Source: Candidatus Parcubacteria bacterium
Lineage (GTDB): Bacteria; Patescibacteriota; Minisyncoccia; UBA6257; 2-01-FULL-56-20
NCBI GenBank assembly: GCA_027449645.1
Contig: DAIDLF010000028.1
Location: forward strand, 1-35,191
Length of the DNA stretch: 35,191 nucleotides
Reading direction: 5' to 3'
The stretch's first letter is position 1. Every line of letters begins with the position of its first letter. Both the position numbers and the translations under genes were made by a program. This document shows, in pieces, positions 3,259 through 11,570 of this stretch. The notes under the pieces were generated by a model. The model was not told the origin of the DNA. It saw only the letters and a list, made by a program, of their open reading frames with translations, and did not search any database.

Positions 3259-3500
3259 GGATGCGGCGTCGCGGCAAGGGCAAGGCGGTCGCGTCCAAAA
3301 CAAAAGCCATAAAGGCTGGGGAACGGAGAAGCAGGTGAAAATCCTGCACAGTGCCGCTACGGTGATCTGCGCGCAACATCATGCAATGATGGCCTGCGTG
3401 CGGAAAGTCCGGTCGCCGCTCCCCTGCCGTAAACGTCTGACATTCCTCGAGCAAGGGAAAGTGGATACGCATTGCCGGCTTCGCCGCCGGCACCGATGTC
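3259..3500 (+). promoter_or_regulatory. Cobalamin riboswitch (core about 3305-3431)
   Basis: GAA-GCAGG-TGAAAAT-CCTGC-ACAGTGCCGCTACGGTGA matches the conserved cobalamin aptamer core (J3/4-P4-L4-P5-L5). A long P6-type stem follows (CTGCGCGCA/TGCGTGCGG with CATCA-tgcaa-TGATG). A B12-box-like AAGTCCGGTCGCCGCT is at about 3405-3420. GGAG/CTCC can close P3. Confidence 0.85.
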
Positions 3501-3533
3501 CCTTCTCTCGCCGAGAAGGTTTTTTATTTTTTT
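3501..3533 (+). terminator. Riboswitch expression-platform intrinsic terminator
   Basis: CCTTCTC-TCGCC-GAGAAGG perfect 7-bp hairpin followed by TTTTTTATTTTTTT. The partly exclusive antiterminator candidate AAGGGA (3453-3458) pairs with TCCCTT (3499-3504). Confidence 0.9.
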
Positions 3534-3562: not shown

Positions 3563-5689
3563 ATGAACGAAGTCCTGAACCCGGAACTGGAAGAAGCCTG
3601 TCGCGAGACCATCCCCGAAATCGAATTGCGGGAGCAGGTTCCGGAGCGCGATCCCGCAGAGGAAGGCGCGGAGCTTTCGCCATCGCCGAAAAACGAAGAA
3701 GGCGAAAAATCCGGAACCGCATCCGGCCTCGATCTCGTGCTTGAGCGGCACGGGGGTGCCGAAGAGGACTGGAAGATCACCTACCACGAGAGCGGCCATC
3801 GTTTTGATCCCGAGGCCCGGGAGCTGCTCGACGAGCACGGGAAATCGCTCACGAAGGAAATAGAGACGTCGGACGACAATATGTCTGCCGAGAAGATCGC
3901 GGAGCATTACCGGATGCTCGATCATTTCCAATCGAACCCCGACAAGCCCTATCTCCTCCCCGACTGGGTGGAGCAGACCCAGCACGGCGAGGTGATCCAT
4001 TCCACCATCGTCACGCTCGACGAGAACAACATATTCCATTATGAAACGCGATCGCACGAGGTAATGGCGGATGAGCCGGAAGAAGAGGATGCGCGCGAAG
4101 AAGTCCAAGAAGCGCCGGAGGCGGGCATCCTTTCAGATGAAATTCCCGCTTCCGATGATGCCGCAGAAACCGTGGCCAGCATCCCGGTGCTCAGGATCGA
4201 TCTCAATGAAAAGATCCTCGGGTCCCTTTCGGCAGAGCAAGCATATAGTGCAACAGCCGAAACGGCGCCGATCGAGGAAGATATTCTCCCCGCGCTCCAT
4301 GAAAATCCCCATTACGAGACTGCGCCGCATGAAGTTCTTGCGACCATAGGAAAGGATGATGGCACATCGGAAGATGCAGGTCCCGAAACCATGGAGCAAT
4401 CCTCTGTCGCGGCTGAAGCGACGTTCATGGAGATCGCGCCCGCGGAGGCGGTTGGTGCCGAAGCCGCTCCCGAAACGGCAGAAGGGGGAGCGATAACGCA
4501 GGCTGATGGGGCGGCGGCACAAGAGATAAGTCCAATCCCAGAGACAAGCGCAGAAATGCCGGTAGCAGAAGCGGAGGAAGATGGCCAAATCCATCGCTTG
4601 CCCGAAACCGTGATGGCTCCTCGTGAGACAAGCGAATCTATGCCGGCAGACGGCACTGCCGAAGCCGAAACGCTTTCCGAAGCAGTCCTCGAACCTGCAT
4701 CGAGAGAGAAAGAAGGGTCAGAGGCAGAAACAACGGTCGGAAGCGCAGCGGCAGGAGAAAATACCCCCCGGGCCGAAACTGGGGCCGAAACCAGAACTGA
4801 GGCTGAAATTGAAATGTACCCTGCAGTCCATACTGCAGAAACCAGAGAAGCTGTCCAAGTTATGAAATCCTCGGCTGAAAAGGCAGGCGCGACGAATGAA
4901 AGCGAAGTGGAAAGCGCAGAGGCGCAAGCCATTGCCCACAAGACCGCGGCGCGCGCCGGGGAATCGCATCCTCCTCTCCAGGAAAATGCCGACATCGCCA
5001 AATCAGCGGAAAGTTCGACTGACAGGCCGGCAGTAAAAGAAAAAAATGCACCGATCGAGGCTGTCTCCCATGAAGACGCACCGGACTCCGCAGGGCACGA
5101 GATGACTGGTCCCGAAGAAAACGCGTGGACACGGGAAGTGATTGCCGCGCCGCAGGAAAAAACTCTCCCGCGCGAAGCAATCGCCATTGCGCAAAAGCCG
5201 GAGGCGGCGCAACAAGAATCGGCGGTTACCGTCGAGGCCTCCTCCACTGCCCCCGCCGTCGAGGCCCGCGTCATCGCCGCCGGCACTGCCACCGAACGTG
5301 CTGCTTATCCTGAACATGAAAGCGCGGCACTTCCGGAAAGTTCCGCCGAGAAAGATTCTGATATCGCCATCGAGGCATCTGCCGAAGCATCCAACCGCAC
5401 GGAAACGGCGGCAGCGGAAGGGATGACTGGAAGGGAGGTTTTATTGCGGTCGCTCGGTATCGTAACGGAACGGCGGAGCGCAGGTGCGGGCGCGGAGGCG
5501 AAAACGGGCGCGGCCGAGACCCTGGCTCCTTTCACCGTCACCGCGGCCCGCGCGGGCGCGGCAGCGGGAGCACAGACTGCCGGAGCGAACCAATCAGCCG
5601 GGTCACGGCAGCGGGAACAGGAGCTGAAACCGCGCGAACGCGCGAGTGGCACTTCCCTCAACGGGATCACCTTGCGCCGGGCGGCATGA
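3563..5689 (+). CDS. Acidic Ala/Glu-rich low-complexity protein of unknown function
   Basis: 708-aa ORF with an ordered-looking N-terminal ~180 aa followed by Glu/Ala/Thr-rich sequence. First gene after the riboswitch terminator. Antisense ORFs in the region look like composition artefacts. Confidence 0.8.
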   Translation: MNEVLNPELEEACRETIPEIELREQVPERDPAEEGAELSPSPKNEEGEKSGTASGLDLVLERHGGAEEDWKITYHESGHRFDPEARELLDEHGKSLTKEIETSDDNMSAEKIAEHYRMLDHFQSNPDKPYLLPDWVEQTQHGEVIHSTIVTLDENNIFHYETRSHEVMADEPEEEDAREEVQEAPEAGILSDEIPASDDAAETVASIPVLRIDLNEKILGSLSAEQAYSATAETAPIEEDILPALHENPHYETAPHEVLATIGKDDGTSEDAGPETMEQSSVAAEATFMEIAPAEAVGAEAAPETAEGGAITQADGAAAQEISPIPETSAEMPVAEAEEDGQIHRLPETVMAPRETSESMPADGTAEAETLSEAVLEPASREKEGSEAETTVGSAAAGENTPRAETGAETRTEAEIEMYPAVHTAETREAVQVMKSSAEKAGATNESEVESAEAQAIAHKTAARAGESHPPLQENADIAKSAESSTDRPAVKEKNAPIEAVSHEDAPDSAGHEMTGPEENAWTREVIAAPQEKTLPREAIAIAQKPEAAQQESAVTVEASSTAPAVEARVIAAGTATERAAYPEHESAALPESSAEKDSDIAIEASAEASNRTETAAAEGMTGREVLLRSLGIVTERRSAGAGAEAKTGAAETLAPFTVTAARAGAAAGAQTAGANQSAGSRQREQELKPRERASGTSLNGITLRRAA

Positions 5690-5720: not shown

Positions 5721-7397
5721 ATGGCCGACTTCAAAAAGATCCCCTACTACAGTCTCCGCGCGGAAGCGCTCATCGGCACCCTGCCCGTGCTGATCGGCCG
5801 CGCACAGGAGCAGGAGCGGCTCACGCGCGTCATCAACCGCCGCATCAACAACAACGCGCTGATCGTCGGCCCGAGCGGGATCGGCAAGACGACGTTGGCC
5901 TACGGCTGGCTCAAGCGCCTGAGCGAACAGGAAAAATATGACAACCTCCAGCTGATCCAATTCGACACGGATCATTTTTACGGCATCGACGAGGCGATAG
6001 GCGGCGCAAATGGCGGTGCAGGCAAGGTCTACCGCGAAGCGCTCGCATCATTGCCGCCCTGCGTGCTCTTCATCGACAACTTCGGCCGCGCCATGCGCCA
6101 GAGCTCCAGCTTCGTGCACCAGGTGATGCGCCTCTATGATATGACCCTCAAGAAGCCGGACGTGCGCATGGTGATCGCGCTCCAGCCGCAGGAATACGCG
6201 TGGCTCGAACGGGAGCATCCCGCGTTCGTCCAACTCTTCGAGACGGTCCTCCTCAAGCCGCAGACGTCGGCGGAGTACGTGCGCATTTTGGAGACGGCGC
6301 TCCCCCGCCTCAATCACGAGCACCGCATCATCATCCCCACGCAGTCGCTGCAGGAGATCGTCGCGTATGCCGAACGCTTCCCCGCGCTCGGACAGCTGCC
6401 GCGCTCGGCGATCAGCCTCCTTGACGAAGGCATCGCGTTCGCGGCGGCGAGCGGCCGCAAGGAGCTGATGGGCAACGGCGTGGCGCAGGTGGTGGCGAGC
6501 AAGACCGGCATCCCGGTGAGCCAGCTCAATCCCGACGAACTCGCGTCGCTGAAGGAGCTGGAGCAGAAGCTCGGCGAACGGATCATCAGCCAGTCCGGCG
6601 CGATCGCGAAGATCGCCTCCACGCTCCAGCGCGCCAAGCTCGGCATCCGCAATCCACAGAAGCCGCTCGGCTCGTTCCTGATGCTCGGCCCGTCCGGCGT
6701 GGGCAAGACGGAGACGGCAAAACTGATCGCAGAGACAATGTTCGGCCGCAGCGAGAGCTTCATCCGGTTCGACATGTCCGAGTTCGCGCAGGACCACACC
6801 GTCCAGCGGCTGATCGGCGCGCCCGCCGGCTACACCGGCTACGAACAGGGCGGCGCGCTCACGAACGCCCTGCACGCGGAACCGCACTGCCTCATCCTGC
6901 TCGACGAGATCGAGAAAGCGCATCCCAAAATTTTTGATATCTTCCTCCAGGTGCTGGATGACGGCCGCCTGACGTCCGGCCAGAACGAGACCGTCGACGC
7001 CTGCAACGCGATCATCATGGCGACCTCGAACGTCGGCGTGGAGGAGATCCTGAAGGCCGCCGCCGCGGGCGAGACCGACCTGAACCGGCCGGAATTCATC
7101 CAGGAAAAGATGCTCCCCTTGCTCGCCGGTGCGTTCCGCCTTGAATTCCTGAACCGGTTCGACAGCATCCTTATCTTCAACCCGCTCAGCCTGCCGGGGC
7201 TCGTGCAGATCGCCCAGCTCGAGATAAAGAAGATCGAGCGGCGGCTGGCCAAGCACAACGTGCAGTTCACGATCGATCCCGCAGTGCTCGAGGAAAAGAT
7301 AAAGACGATGACCGACCCGCGCTTCGGCGCGCGCCCGGTGAAGCGCTTCATCGAGGAGACCTGCGAATCGCTGCTCGTGCAGTCGCTGTTACAATAA
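5721..7397 (+). CDS. Clp/ClpB-family double AAA+ ATPase (Hsp100-like), no N-domain
   Basis: D1 Walker A GPSGIGKTT. D2: GSFLMLGPSGVGKTETAKLIAETMFG, ILLDEIEKAHPKIFDIFLQVLDDGRLTSGQNETVD, IIMATSNVG. Interdomain KTGIPVSQLNPDELASLKELEQKLGERIISQ is typical of the Clp family. Confidence 0.93.
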   Translation: MADFKKIPYYSLRAEALIGTLPVLIGRAQEQERLTRVINRRINNNALIVGPSGIGKTTLAYGWLKRLSEQEKYDNLQLIQFDTDHFYGIDEAIGGANGGAGKVYREALASLPPCVLFIDNFGRAMRQSSSFVHQVMRLYDMTLKKPDVRMVIALQPQEYAWLEREHPAFVQLFETVLLKPQTSAEYVRILETALPRLNHEHRIIIPTQSLQEIVAYAERFPALGQLPRSAISLLDEGIAFAAASGRKELMGNGVAQVVASKTGIPVSQLNPDELASLKELEQKLGERIISQSGAIAKIASTLQRAKLGIRNPQKPLGSFLMLGPSGVGKTETAKLIAETMFGRSESFIRFDMSEFAQDHTVQRLIGAPAGYTGYEQGGALTNALHAEPHCLILLDEIEKAHPKIFDIFLQVLDDGRLTSGQNETVDACNAIIMATSNVGVEEILKAAAAGETDLNRPEFIQEKMLPLLAGAFRLEFLNRFDSILIFNPLSLPGLVQIAQLEIKKIERRLAKHNVQFTIDPAVLEEKIKTMTDPRFGARPVKRFIEETCESLLVQSLLQ

Positions 7398-7407
7398 CCA
7401 CACCGCC

Positions 7408-7749
7408 ATGGCCCAAAACCACGCACCAAACAACGAACATCTCTCATCGCCCGAGGCGCCCGCAACGGCACGCGGCGCGAAGACGCCGATGACAACTGCC
7501 GAGCGGCTGACGGTCGCCGATGCGGAGCGCATGGAGACCAATCGCTATGAGATGCTTGAGGTCGTGGAGGGCTACTTGAGCGAACCGTTCAAGAAGTCGG
7601 TGCGCGAGAAGATCCGGCGCGAAAAGGAACGCCTGCTTGCCTTCGTGTCCTATGAGAAGCAGGTGCAGGACGCGGCAAAGAGGATCGTGCGCGTGCTCAA
7701 CCCGGCGTATTTCGTCCATAAGCCGCTCGATAAAACTATGTTCGAATAA
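7408..7749 (+). CDS. Small conserved-operon protein of unknown function
   Basis: 113-aa ORF, 10 bp after the AAA+ gene and 30 bp before the T4CP-like gene. Helical, charged C-terminal half. Confidence 0.75.
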   Translation: MAQNHAPNNEHLSSPEAPATARGAKTPMTTAERLTVADAERMETNRYEMLEVVEGYLSEPFKKSVREKIRREKERLLAFVSYEKQVQDAAKRIVRVLNPAYFVHKPLDKTMFE

Positions 7750-7779
7750 AAAAATCGCGCGCGATTAAAAAACACCACC

Positions 7780-9066
7780 ATGTCATCCGTCACCATCGGC
7801 ATCAACGAATTCCGCAACAAGCTGACCTCCATCCAATTCAAGGACGAGGACCGTTTGCGGCACATGTACATGATCGGGAAGACCGGCGTCGGCAAATCGA
7901 CAATCTTCCAAAACATGTGCCTGCAGGACATCAAACAGCACCGCGGCGCGTGCTTCATCGACCCGCATGGCGAATCGATCGACTGGCTGCTCAAGCGCAT
8001 CCCGGCGGACCGCATGGAGGACGTGATCCTTTTCGACCCGAGCGACGCGGAGTTCCCGTTCGGCCTCAACCTGCTCGAGGCGAAGAGCGACTGGGAGCGC
8101 GACTTCCTGGTGAGCGAGGTCATCCAGATCTTCTACAAGCTCTTCGATCCCGACCACACGGGCGTGATCGGTCCCCAGTTCGAACACTGGCTCCGCAACG
8201 CCGCACTCACCGTGATGGCGGGACCGGGCGGCGGCACGATCATCGAGATCCCGCGGCTCTTCGTGGACGCCGGCTTTGAGGCGGAAAAGCGCCGCCACCT
8301 TACCGACCCGCTCGTGATCGATTTCTGGACGAAGCAGATGGCGAAGACCTCCGATTTCCACAAGAGCGAGATGCTCAATTACTTCATGTCCAAGTTCGGC
8401 CATTTCACGAACAACGCGCTCATGCGCAACATCATGGGCCAACATGAAAGCAGCTTCGACTTCGATTCCGTGATGGATGGCCGCAAGATCCTCCTCGTCA
8501 ATCTTTCCAAGGGAAAGATCGGCGAAATGAACGCGCACATCCTCGGCCTGATCCTCGTGGCAAAATTACAGGCCGCCATTTTGCGCCGCGCGCGCCAGAG
8601 CGGCGGCGAGCGCACGCCGTTCTATCTCTACGTGGACGAGTTCCAGAACTTCATTACCGATTCCTTCATCAGTTTGCTCAGCGAGTCGAGGAAGTACGGC
8701 TTAGGCGTGCACCTTACGAACCAATATCTCGCGCAGCTGCCCGCCGCCCTGCGCGATGCCGTGCTGGGCAACGTGGGCACGCTCCTCTCTTTCGAAGTAG
8801 GCGCCGAGGATGCCGAACTGCTCACCAAAGAGTTCGATCCGTTCACCCTGCACGACTTCATCGGCCTGCCCCGGTTCCATTTCTATATAAAACTGATGAT
8901 CGACGGCAAGACGAGCAACGCCTTCTCCGGCGTCGGACTGCCGCCCGAACCGCCCGCACCTGCGAGCGATGCGATCGACGGTGCCGTGGCGATCGTCAAC
9001 CGCCTGGCCTACGGCACGCCGCGCGTGCTCGTGGAAGAGATGATCAGGCGGGAGCTGGCGCAGTAG
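7780..9066 (+). CDS. VirD4/TraG/TraD-like type IV secretion DNA-binding ATPase (soluble, no N-terminal TM)
   Basis: Walker A MIGKTGVGKSTIFQNM, FIDPHGESIDWLL, LVNLSKGKIGE, Walker B FYLYVDEFQNF, SRKYGLGVHLTNQYLAQLP (TraM-recognition/TraG C-terminal motif). Confidence 0.9.
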   Translation: MSSVTIGINEFRNKLTSIQFKDEDRLRHMYMIGKTGVGKSTIFQNMCLQDIKQHRGACFIDPHGESIDWLLKRIPADRMEDVILFDPSDAEFPFGLNLLEAKSDWERDFLVSEVIQIFYKLFDPDHTGVIGPQFEHWLRNAALTVMAGPGGGTIIEIPRLFVDAGFEAEKRRHLTDPLVIDFWTKQMAKTSDFHKSEMLNYFMSKFGHFTNNALMRNIMGQHESSFDFDSVMDGRKILLVNLSKGKIGEMNAHILGLILVAKLQAAILRRARQSGGERTPFYLYVDEFQNFITDSFISLLSESRKYGLGVHLTNQYLAQLPAALRDAVLGNVGTLLSFEVGAEDAELLTKEFDPFTLHDFIGLPRFHFYIKLMIDGKTSNAFSGVGLPPEPPAPASDAIDGAVAIVNRLAYGTPRVLVEEMIRRELAQ

Positions 9067-9080
9067 TGCCCTGAAATATT

Positions 9081-10289
9081 TTATTTTTCGGCGTTATAGA
9101 TCTGCTGGATCTCGGATGCGGAAAGGACGCGATTATAAACGCGAAAATCGTCAATGAGGCCTACGAATTGATAGGCCAGAGTGCTGTAATTCCCCATATA
9201 AAGGTTGGGCCCATCAAAAGAGGCCGTACCCGGTGCTGAGGTTTGGCCATCAAGGACCCCATTAGCATAGAGCTTCAGGGAAGCGCCATCATACGTTCCT
9301 ACGATAAAATACCAGATTCCCGGGGTAAGGGTGGTATTCCCTCCAACACTCTGTTGAACGCCATTGATGCGCGCAGAAAAATAATCCTTACCAGCATTAT
9401 CCGCAAGATAAGGAAGAGCAAAACTGGCGAATATCTGCAAACCAGAACTGCTTGCGGGATTGATCCATCCCATCATGGTGAACCCCTGACTCATTGAAAC
9501 ACCCGAGGTGACCCCGTTCGCAAGCACATAGCCCGAGGTAAACTGAAGACAGCTCGATCCGAGTTTACAAGCAGACCCCGATTGCCATGTGGGGAGAGTC
9601 GTCCCCGTGAGTGTTCCGTTGGCTCCATGACCGCTCCAGTCAAGCGTGCTGCTGCCCGATCCTTCATCAAGCGGCCAGTAGCCCACGAGGCCTCGTCCGG
9701 TACTAGGAAAAGTGGAGGCTCCAGACCCTACCTCCGCAAGCGCAGGATCGGCACCTCCCGCGGAACTCGATTTTGCATATTTCATTGATTCCATGAAGGC
9801 AGAGATTCCATATTGGGTGCCGTTCGTGGCATAGGTGTAATAAAGATTGCTTGAGGTTTGGTTTGTGGGATCTACGGGGAGATTGGAAAGAGGGCTGCCT
9901 GCGGAGATAGTGGAGAGGTTCACCGGGATCCAGCCGGTTGAAACCGCGCTGCGATTAGTGGAAGATGCCGCACAATGGTAGGTCCAGGTAGAAGAAGGCA
10001 TACCCAAGCCTTGGCATTGGTCACCGAGAGTAGACGTAGCAGAGGTGTCGAAGGTTGAGATATAGCTGGTGGTAGCCGTGCCAAGAGAAAAACTTGATGC
10101 AGCGGATTGGTCCGTCACATAGAGATTCAAAGCTGAGTTCAGGGTGGCAAGATCGGAGACCCGGTTCGCATCGCGGGATTGGCGCAACAGCTCTGCGGGG
10201 TTCAGGGTCAAAACCACCACGACCGCAAGGATCGCGATGATGGCGATCACGACGAGAAGCTCAATGAGGGTGAAGGCAGAGCGTTTCAT
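9081..10289 (-). CDS. Type IV pilin-like protein with C-terminal LamG/concanavalin-like domain (copy B)
   Basis: MKRSAFTLIELLVVIAIIAILAVVVVLTLNPAELL prepilin signal/N-helix. C-terminal GLVGYWPLDEGSG...GWINP...GLIDDFRVYNRVLSASEIQQIYNAEK. Confidence 0.93.
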   Translation of the reverse strand: MKRSAFTLIELLVVIAIIAILAVVVVLTLNPAELLRQSRDANRVSDLATLNSALNLYVTDQSAASSFSLGTATTSYISTFDTSATSTLGDQCQGLGMPSSTWTYHCAASSTNRSAVSTGWIPVNLSTISAGSPLSNLPVDPTNQTSSNLYYTYATNGTQYGISAFMESMKYAKSSSAGGADPALAEVGSGASTFPSTGRGLVGYWPLDEGSGSSTLDWSGHGANGTLTGTTLPTWQSGSACKLGSSCLQFTSGYVLANGVTSGVSMSQGFTMMGWINPASSSGLQIFASFALPYLADNAGKDYFSARINGVQQSVGGNTTLTPGIWYFIVGTYDGASLKLYANGVLDGQTSAPGTASFDGPNLYMGNYSTLAYQFVGLIDDFRVYNRVLSASEIQQIYNAEK

Positions 10290-11570
10290 TTATTTCTCGG
10301 CGTTATAAAGCGCCTGGACTTCTGCCGAAGAAAGCGCGCGGTTATAAAGACGAACGTCATCAATGATGCCTGGGAAAAGATTACTGCCGCCCCGCGATCC
10401 AATCGTGAAGGGAATCGTATTGGCCCCAGGTGGATAGGCCCAAGATACCGGGGCACCCGCAACTCCATCTCGATAGGCAATAACTTGCGTTCCATTGAAA
10501 ACTCCTGTGACGAAATGCCAATTCCCGTCACCAATCGCACCTCCGGTTGCCGTACCGCTGTTGCCATTCGCTCCTGAACGGATATTGAACGTAATACCTC
10601 CCATGTAATAACCCAGATCAAAACCACAGGTTCCCGCGCCGACAGTGCATCCGCCATATTCAGCGCCAATACCGTTATATGACGAATTGGGCACTGGTAT
10701 CCTTATCCATGCCGCAACCGTAAGGTTCCCAACAAGCGCAGTGCTTGCACTGCTCGTAACCATCACATAATTCGTGGTTCCGTCAAAGTTTCCTGCCCAT
10801 CCCCCCACCTTTGCATTGCTCGTATAATGGCTTCCGGCTATCATCGATCCATTCCATGCCCCGTTATTCCCATTGCTCGTCTGGTCGTAAGCGATGGTGC
10901 CAGATCCTTCGTTAAGCGGCCAGTAACCGACGAGACCAGCCGGGTCAAAGAGGGAAGAGACGCTGGGAGTGCCTCCGAAGATGACCTCGGGGAAGAACGT
11001 GTCTTGGGGTAAGGCACCATATTGCGCTTTGTACTTCTGAGATTCAAGGTCGGCAGTGACCACAAACTGGGACCCATTCGTATTATAGCTGTAAAAAAGA
11101 TTGGAACTCGTCTGATTCACGGGATCTACGGGAAGATTGCCCAAAGGAGGGCCGGAGGAGATGTTCGAAAAATTCACCGGAATCCAGCCGGTCGTCGTCG
11201 CGTTGCGATAGGTGGAGCTTGCGGAGCATTGCCAAGATTGTCCAGTGCCTAAAGTAGGGAGAGCGAGGCCCTGGCATTGGTCACCCGCCGTACTCGTGGC
11301 CGAAGAGTCATAGACCGAAGGATAAGTGGCGTTTGCGTTCCCTAACGAGAAGGAAGAGGCCCCTGACTGGTCCGTGACATACAGATTGAGGGCGCTGTTC
11401 AGCGTCGCCATGTCGCTTACCCTATTCGCGTCACGGGATTGGCGCAACAGCTCTGCGGGATTCAAGGTGAGGACCACGACGACCGCAAGGATCGCGATGA
11501 TGGCGATCACGACGAGAAGCTCGATGAGGGTGAAGGCGCGACTTTTGCCGTGCGCATTATAAAATGCCAT
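10290..11570 (-). CDS. Type IV pilin-like protein with C-terminal LamG/concanavalin-like domain (copy A)
   Basis: SRAFTLIELLVVIAIIAILAVVVVLTLNPAELLRQSRDANRVSD...GLVGYWPLNEGSGTIAYDQTSNGNNG...GIIDDVRLYNRALSSAEVQALYNAEK. Tandem paralog of copy B. Confidence 0.93.
   Translation of the reverse strand: MAFYNAHGKSRAFTLIELLVVIAIIAILAVVVVLTLNPAELLRQSRDANRVSDMATLNSALNLYVTDQSGASSFSLGNANATYPSVYDSSATSTAGDQCQGLALPTLGTGQSWQCSASSTYRNATTTGWIPVNFSNISSGPPLGNLPVDPVNQTSSNLFYSYNTNGSQFVVTADLESQKYKAQYGALPQDTFFPEVIFGGTPSVSSLFDPAGLVGYWPLNEGSGTIAYDQTSNGNNGAWNGSMIAGSHYTSNAKVGGWAGNFDGTTNYVMVTSSASTALVGNLTVAAWIRIPVPNSSYNGIGAEYGGCTVGAGTCGFDLGYYMGGITFNIRSGANGNSGTATGGAIGDGNWHFVTGVFNGTQVIAYRDGVAGAPVSWAYPPGANTIPFTIGSRGGSNLFPGIIDDVRLYNRALSSAEVQALYNAEK

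Follow-up and report, generated by a model that had tools for sequence, protein, structure and literature searches.

Is the cobalamin riboswitch carried by a reduced bacterial genome a departure from known members of its kind, and which gene does it control? Both questions are raised by a leader on the forward strand of a 35,191-nucleotide contig of a Candidatus Parcubacteria bacterium, here called the window. A sequence-only reading had described a cobalamin aptamer in an apparently reduced, CPR-like genome, with a mismatched variant P5 and an unusual L5, and had raised the possibility of a divergent subclass whose ligand selectivity is altered. Patescibacteria are small-genome bacteria commonly held to be without most cofactor synthesis. 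The assembly, in which the window is contig C28, amounts to 665 kb in 40 contigs at 85% completeness, a reduced genome of the CPR type, and the host belongs to the Liptonbacteria family of the Patescibacteria. Since the records of its family relatives are mostly named Candidatus Liptonbacteria, the label "CPR-like" holds.

Identity, pairing and class of the aptamer

In a search of the 35-kb window, the Rfam model RF01482 (AdoCbl, cobalamin clan CL00101) matches positions 3301–3469 of the forward strand with 56.6 bits (E 5.6e-8), above its curated gathering cut-off of 50 bits, and this is its single match across the whole 665-kb assembly. RF00174 scores 30.6 bits at the same site, slightly below its cut-off of 31.5. 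Model R1, which was built from nine family members and used for the searches and alignment of relatives, scores 74.8 bits at 3321–3419, the window having belonged to its training set. The core and the B12-box-like sequence quoted earlier are present within this interval, and the whole element is larger, comprising the aptamer together with P13/L13 (3301–3469). The match is thus not confined to short patches and takes in the helices of the P3–P6 four-way junction, of which P4 to P6 pair and covary and the P3 region is paired in the fold of the window. Judged by its sequence, the element is a genuine and ordinary-looking cobalamin riboswitch of an already known kind, which would be expected to bind a corrinoid.

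The P4 hairpin (GCAGG/CCUGC with loop UGAAAAU, 3331–3347) is placed by the cmscan alignment and by covariation over 38 sequences. P5 (AGU/GCU with L5 GCC, 3350–3358) follows from the structure line, where its strands are 3350–3352 and 3356–3358 with one U-G included, and from UA/AU covariation. P6 pairs CGG (3360–3362) with CCG (3409–3411), the latter within the B12-box-like AGUCCGGUCGCC, according to the Rfam structure line and the pair counts. The consensus at this place is CUG/CAG, and the window therefore carries a compensated pair and no mismatch. Pairs were counted over 38 aligned R1 matches, two of them weak and probably due to chance; the R1 searches ran with the P6 columns one off, and the counts used the corrected columns. 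In this alignment 94.9% of the cells of P4, P5 and P6 are paired, against a shuffle mean of 73.0%, none of 500 shuffles reaching the observed value, and 83 cells show changes on both sides. Sliding the partner by one column lowers pairing to below 47%. At the outer pair of P5, 19 of the 38 matches have UA and 17 have AU. The CAG/CGG pairing previously taken for P5 was also counted and is rejected, being paired in 67.6% of cells as opposed to 76.2% in shuffles, below every single shuffle, with zero both-side changes. The mismatched P5 was therefore a mis-assigned pairing: its CGG is a strand of P6, and both P5 and P6, correctly placed, are paired and covary.

The P13/L13 hairpin (3441–3463, L13 CUCGAGCA) is identified by folding and by the co-variation of L5 with L13. 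GCA in L13 (3451–3453) is able to pair with UGC in P5/L5 (3352–3354), which corresponds to the kissing loop. L5 reads UGCCG in the window and UCCCG in the consensus. The UGCCG form is common in the clade and is accompanied by CGAGC in all of about 20 cases with L13 located, whereas CCCCG or UCCCG goes with CGAGG or CGAGA and, again where L13 was located, never with CGAGC. The change in L5 is thus compensated in L13 and the kissing loop is kept. The departure of L5 from the consensus, as first described, stands, but it is a clade-wide trait matched by L13 and not specific to the window.

The element shares with RF01482 the layout of P4, P5, P6, J6/3 and P13, the lack of P8–P12 and a score over the cut-off. 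It differs in P6 (CGG/CCG, not CUG/CAG), in L5 GCC with L13 AGC, in J6/3 (GUCGCC, not GUCUUU) and in a longer P6 extension. In place of the P8–P12 extension that serves as the class I criterion, the fold shows one elongated hairpin enclosed by the strands of P6. Class IIb cobalamin riboswitches, defined by GGAA at J3/4 together with UCU in J6/3 (PMC11260477), likewise miss P8–P12, and most relatives (32/36) have GGAA at J3/4; the window differs from the class in reading AGAA at J3/4 and GUCGCC, without UCU, in J6/3. The J3/4 change is its sole junction departure and is particular to the window. On these features it is a compact cobalamin riboswitch that fits neither class I nor class IIb as delimited in PMC11260477. 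We found no evidence of the divergent subclass once suggested: an altered ligand selectivity could draw on the departures of L5 and J3/4 from the consensus, but the P5 mismatch on which it also leaned does not exist and the L5 change is found clade-wide with its compensation in L13, so that this explanation appears very improbable.

Expression platform and proposed mechanism

The aptamer is followed by an intrinsic terminator (3501–3533), recognized by folding and terminator analysis, in which a CCUUCUC/GAGAAGG hairpin (3501–3519) precedes a T-rich run. A predicted antiterminator spans 3446–3515, with positions 3446–3469 pairing to the 5′ arm of the terminator around a GC-rich hairpin (3473–3492), and the minimum-free-energy fold of the leader contains this pairing in place of the terminator. 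The complementarity between P13 and the terminator is no better than in shuffled sequence for the window itself (p 0.28), and reaches p 0.004–0.016 in relatives with other sequences (L082, L083, L100, L021, L023, and L145). It is not significant in the remaining relatives; the antiterminator layout itself recurs in relatives.

A comparable arrangement is known from the corrinoid riboswitch of Priestia megaterium metE, where mutations showed switching of the P13/terminator type (PMC10653944). The window resembles it in the L5–L13 kissing loop, in P13 and in an antiterminator that joins the 3′ strand of P13 to the terminator's 5′ arm (PMC10653944). The metE switch differs in having been tested by mutation and in controlling metE, while the layout in the window is a prediction and a different gene lies downstream. 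By this analogy, corrinoid binding in the P3–P6 junction would favor the L5–L13 kissing loop, which in turn would hold P13 together and free the 5′ arm of the terminator, so that transcription would stop near position 3533. If no ligand were bound, the 3′ strand of P13 would form the antiterminator by pairing with the terminator's 5′ arm, and RNA polymerase would read through. From the terminator, the complementarity in relatives and the metE precedent we infer a transcription-terminating B12-OFF switch, in which both ligand binding and the OFF direction are presumed.

The usual target in relatives

Among the 38 genomes of the family, the riboswitch is found in nine with RF00174 and in ten with R1. 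The switch of G026 (L051:8208–8364), which the RF00174 search missed, carries a large P4-loop insert together with a P6 extension that is long and repeat-like, and keeps the core, L13 and the terminator. DUF4430 (PF14478) corresponds to the C-terminal domain of transcobalamins (PMC4350170) and occurs in the same ten of the 38 genomes as the riboswitch; the chance of this exact overlap is 1 in C(38,10), or about 2e-9, uncorrected for relatedness. Besides the window's own genome, nine have the riboswitch, and in each of them a DUF4430 and/or toroid gene lies directly after the switch (in G036 the contig ends inside this gene). A scan of the genome collection with a toroid-DUF4430 alignment revealed 37 loci (L081–L117) in Patescibacteria and Chloroflexota, which encode presumably secreted toroid-DUF4430 proteins in the former and toroid proteins in the latter. 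An R1 switch lies upstream on the same strand at 35 of them, the two exceptions being short or truncated records; R1 scores some few Chloroflexota matches weakly, though these pass the RF00174 cut-off.

The predicted structure of one toroid-DUF4430 protein (L082:4001–5866) has a mean pLDDT of 86, and its top 15 PDB matches are all intrinsic factor, transcobalamin or haptocorrin. TM-scores are low (0.25–0.31 by query) with an rmsd near 22 Å, meaning that the order of the domains agrees and their relative placement does not. The proteins of the relatives thus resemble the intrinsic factor/transcobalamin family in their toroid and DUF4430 domains and in their best structural matches, and differ from it in being bacterial, in their signal-peptide-like N-termini and in an identity of only about 14–18% to the solved proteins. 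The usual target in the clade is presumably a secreted intrinsic-factor/transcobalamin-like protein with an alpha toroid and DUF4430, which may act as a surface scavenger of B12. The switch itself is ordinary; what deserves attention is its pairing with a transcobalamin-like protein across Patescibacteria. That the two travel together suggests a regulated B12-scavenging system at the cell surface, whose proteins would be bacterial relatives of the B12 carriers found in animals. A literature search, whose coverage left out many subscription journals, found no paper on this link.

Other neighbors occur elsewhere in the order. At L146, L147, and L152 a switch match precedes a gene for a ribonucleotide reductase (RNR) with ATP cones, which at L147 is class I-like by NCBIfam. 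In G086 (L024:7059–8909) the riboswitch lies between the CbiZ and CobD/CbiB genes, an instance of corrinoid salvage in the order. The weakest R1 matches at order level (E 5e-4 to 9e-4) lie at genes with no evident connection to B12 and probably arose by chance.

The switch and its neighbors in the window

The genome of the window is the one exception in the family, as its switch does not precede a toroid-DUF4430 gene. The first gene past the terminator is an orphan ORF of 708 aa (3563–5689), acidic and of low complexity, followed on the same strand by a ClpB/ClpA-like AAA ATPase of 558 aa (5721–7397), an ORF of 113 aa to which the family search assigned no family (7408–7749) and a TraG/VirD4-like ATPase of 428 aa (7780–9066). 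The two ATPases, likewise recognized by family search, are shorter than the usual 800–900-aa forms of their families. The 708-aa ORF has no match in Pfam, NCBIfam or PADLOC and no homolog among 245 genomes of the order. Its coding score, at 0.08, lies above zero and exceeds those of its other frames; the neighbors score 0.36–0.46, and a low value is expected of its biased composition. The predicted structure of its N-terminal 196 residues is of low confidence (pLDDT 55). The family's other 37 genomes hold no close counterpart of the ClpB-like and TraG-like genes (5721–9066), and in same-genus genomes none of the four genes of the cluster lies beside ychF, where only the pilin-like genes that adjoin it recur. 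Viral contigs were considered as the source of a counterpart to the AAA protein and set aside, the matches reaching only 27–29%.

The target of the switch here may have been rewired, stranded or, less likely, misassembled. In a misjoin the leader would have been joined to the wrong sequence and its true neighbor would be a toroid-DUF4430 gene, as the gene order in the other nine riboswitch genomes of the family and the fragmentation of the bin into 40 contigs might suggest. However, in codon usage the AAA and TraG genes match the other genes of the window, a complete switch terminator precedes the junction and no toroid gene is found on any other contig; we regard an assembly artefact as improbable.

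The genome contains a DUF4430 gene of its own, located without a riboswitch on contig C1 beside a gene for a DUF6580 membrane protein (L050:2777–3819). The same adjacency, of a membrane-anchored DUF4430 gene and a DUF6580 gene, is seen both there and at L143:260–1286, and the two form a possible candidate pair for B12 uptake. Apart from a weak match to this short DUF4430 gene, no toroid protein was found in the genome. Neither an AdoCbl-dependent RNR above the cut-off nor the B12-binding domain PF02310, which is present in few relatives, was detected in the 85%-complete assembly, and hence no B12-dependent enzyme was found. The AdoCbl-dependent RNR had been considered as a general user of B12 and was discarded, as it is over the cut-off in five of the ten riboswitch genomes and also in six without the switch.

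With these genes in place, we consider it quite probable that the compact cobalamin riboswitch has either been rewired to, or been left stranded before, the lineage-specific cluster of 708-aa, ClpB-like and TraG-like genes. Had it been stranded, the toroid-DUF4430 target would have been lost, and an intact-looking switch would control nothing important while the 708-aa cluster merely lies downstream. The near-absence of a toroid protein would fit such a loss, as would a cluster that by annotation is unrelated to B12 and is missing from relatives. An unused switch would be expected to decay, however, and here the core, the compensated P6, L13 and the terminator are all intact; stranding seems to us rather unlikely. 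Alternatively, and as a tentative but possible reading, a new operon captured the B12 riboswitch in this lineage, which would place an uncharacterized machine, consisting of an orphan acidic protein, a short ClpB-like unfoldase and a short TraG-like ATPase, under the control of a cofactor signal. The link between the switch and the 708-aa ORF is one of position, seen in one assembly. If capture is correct, a switch that governs intrinsic-factor-like carriers in Patescibacteria and Chloroflexota would have been reassigned in a single lineage. Adjoining the cluster, the window contains two adjacent pilin-like genes (9081–11570) with an N-terminal methylation motif and Laminin_G_3, which are probably duplicates.
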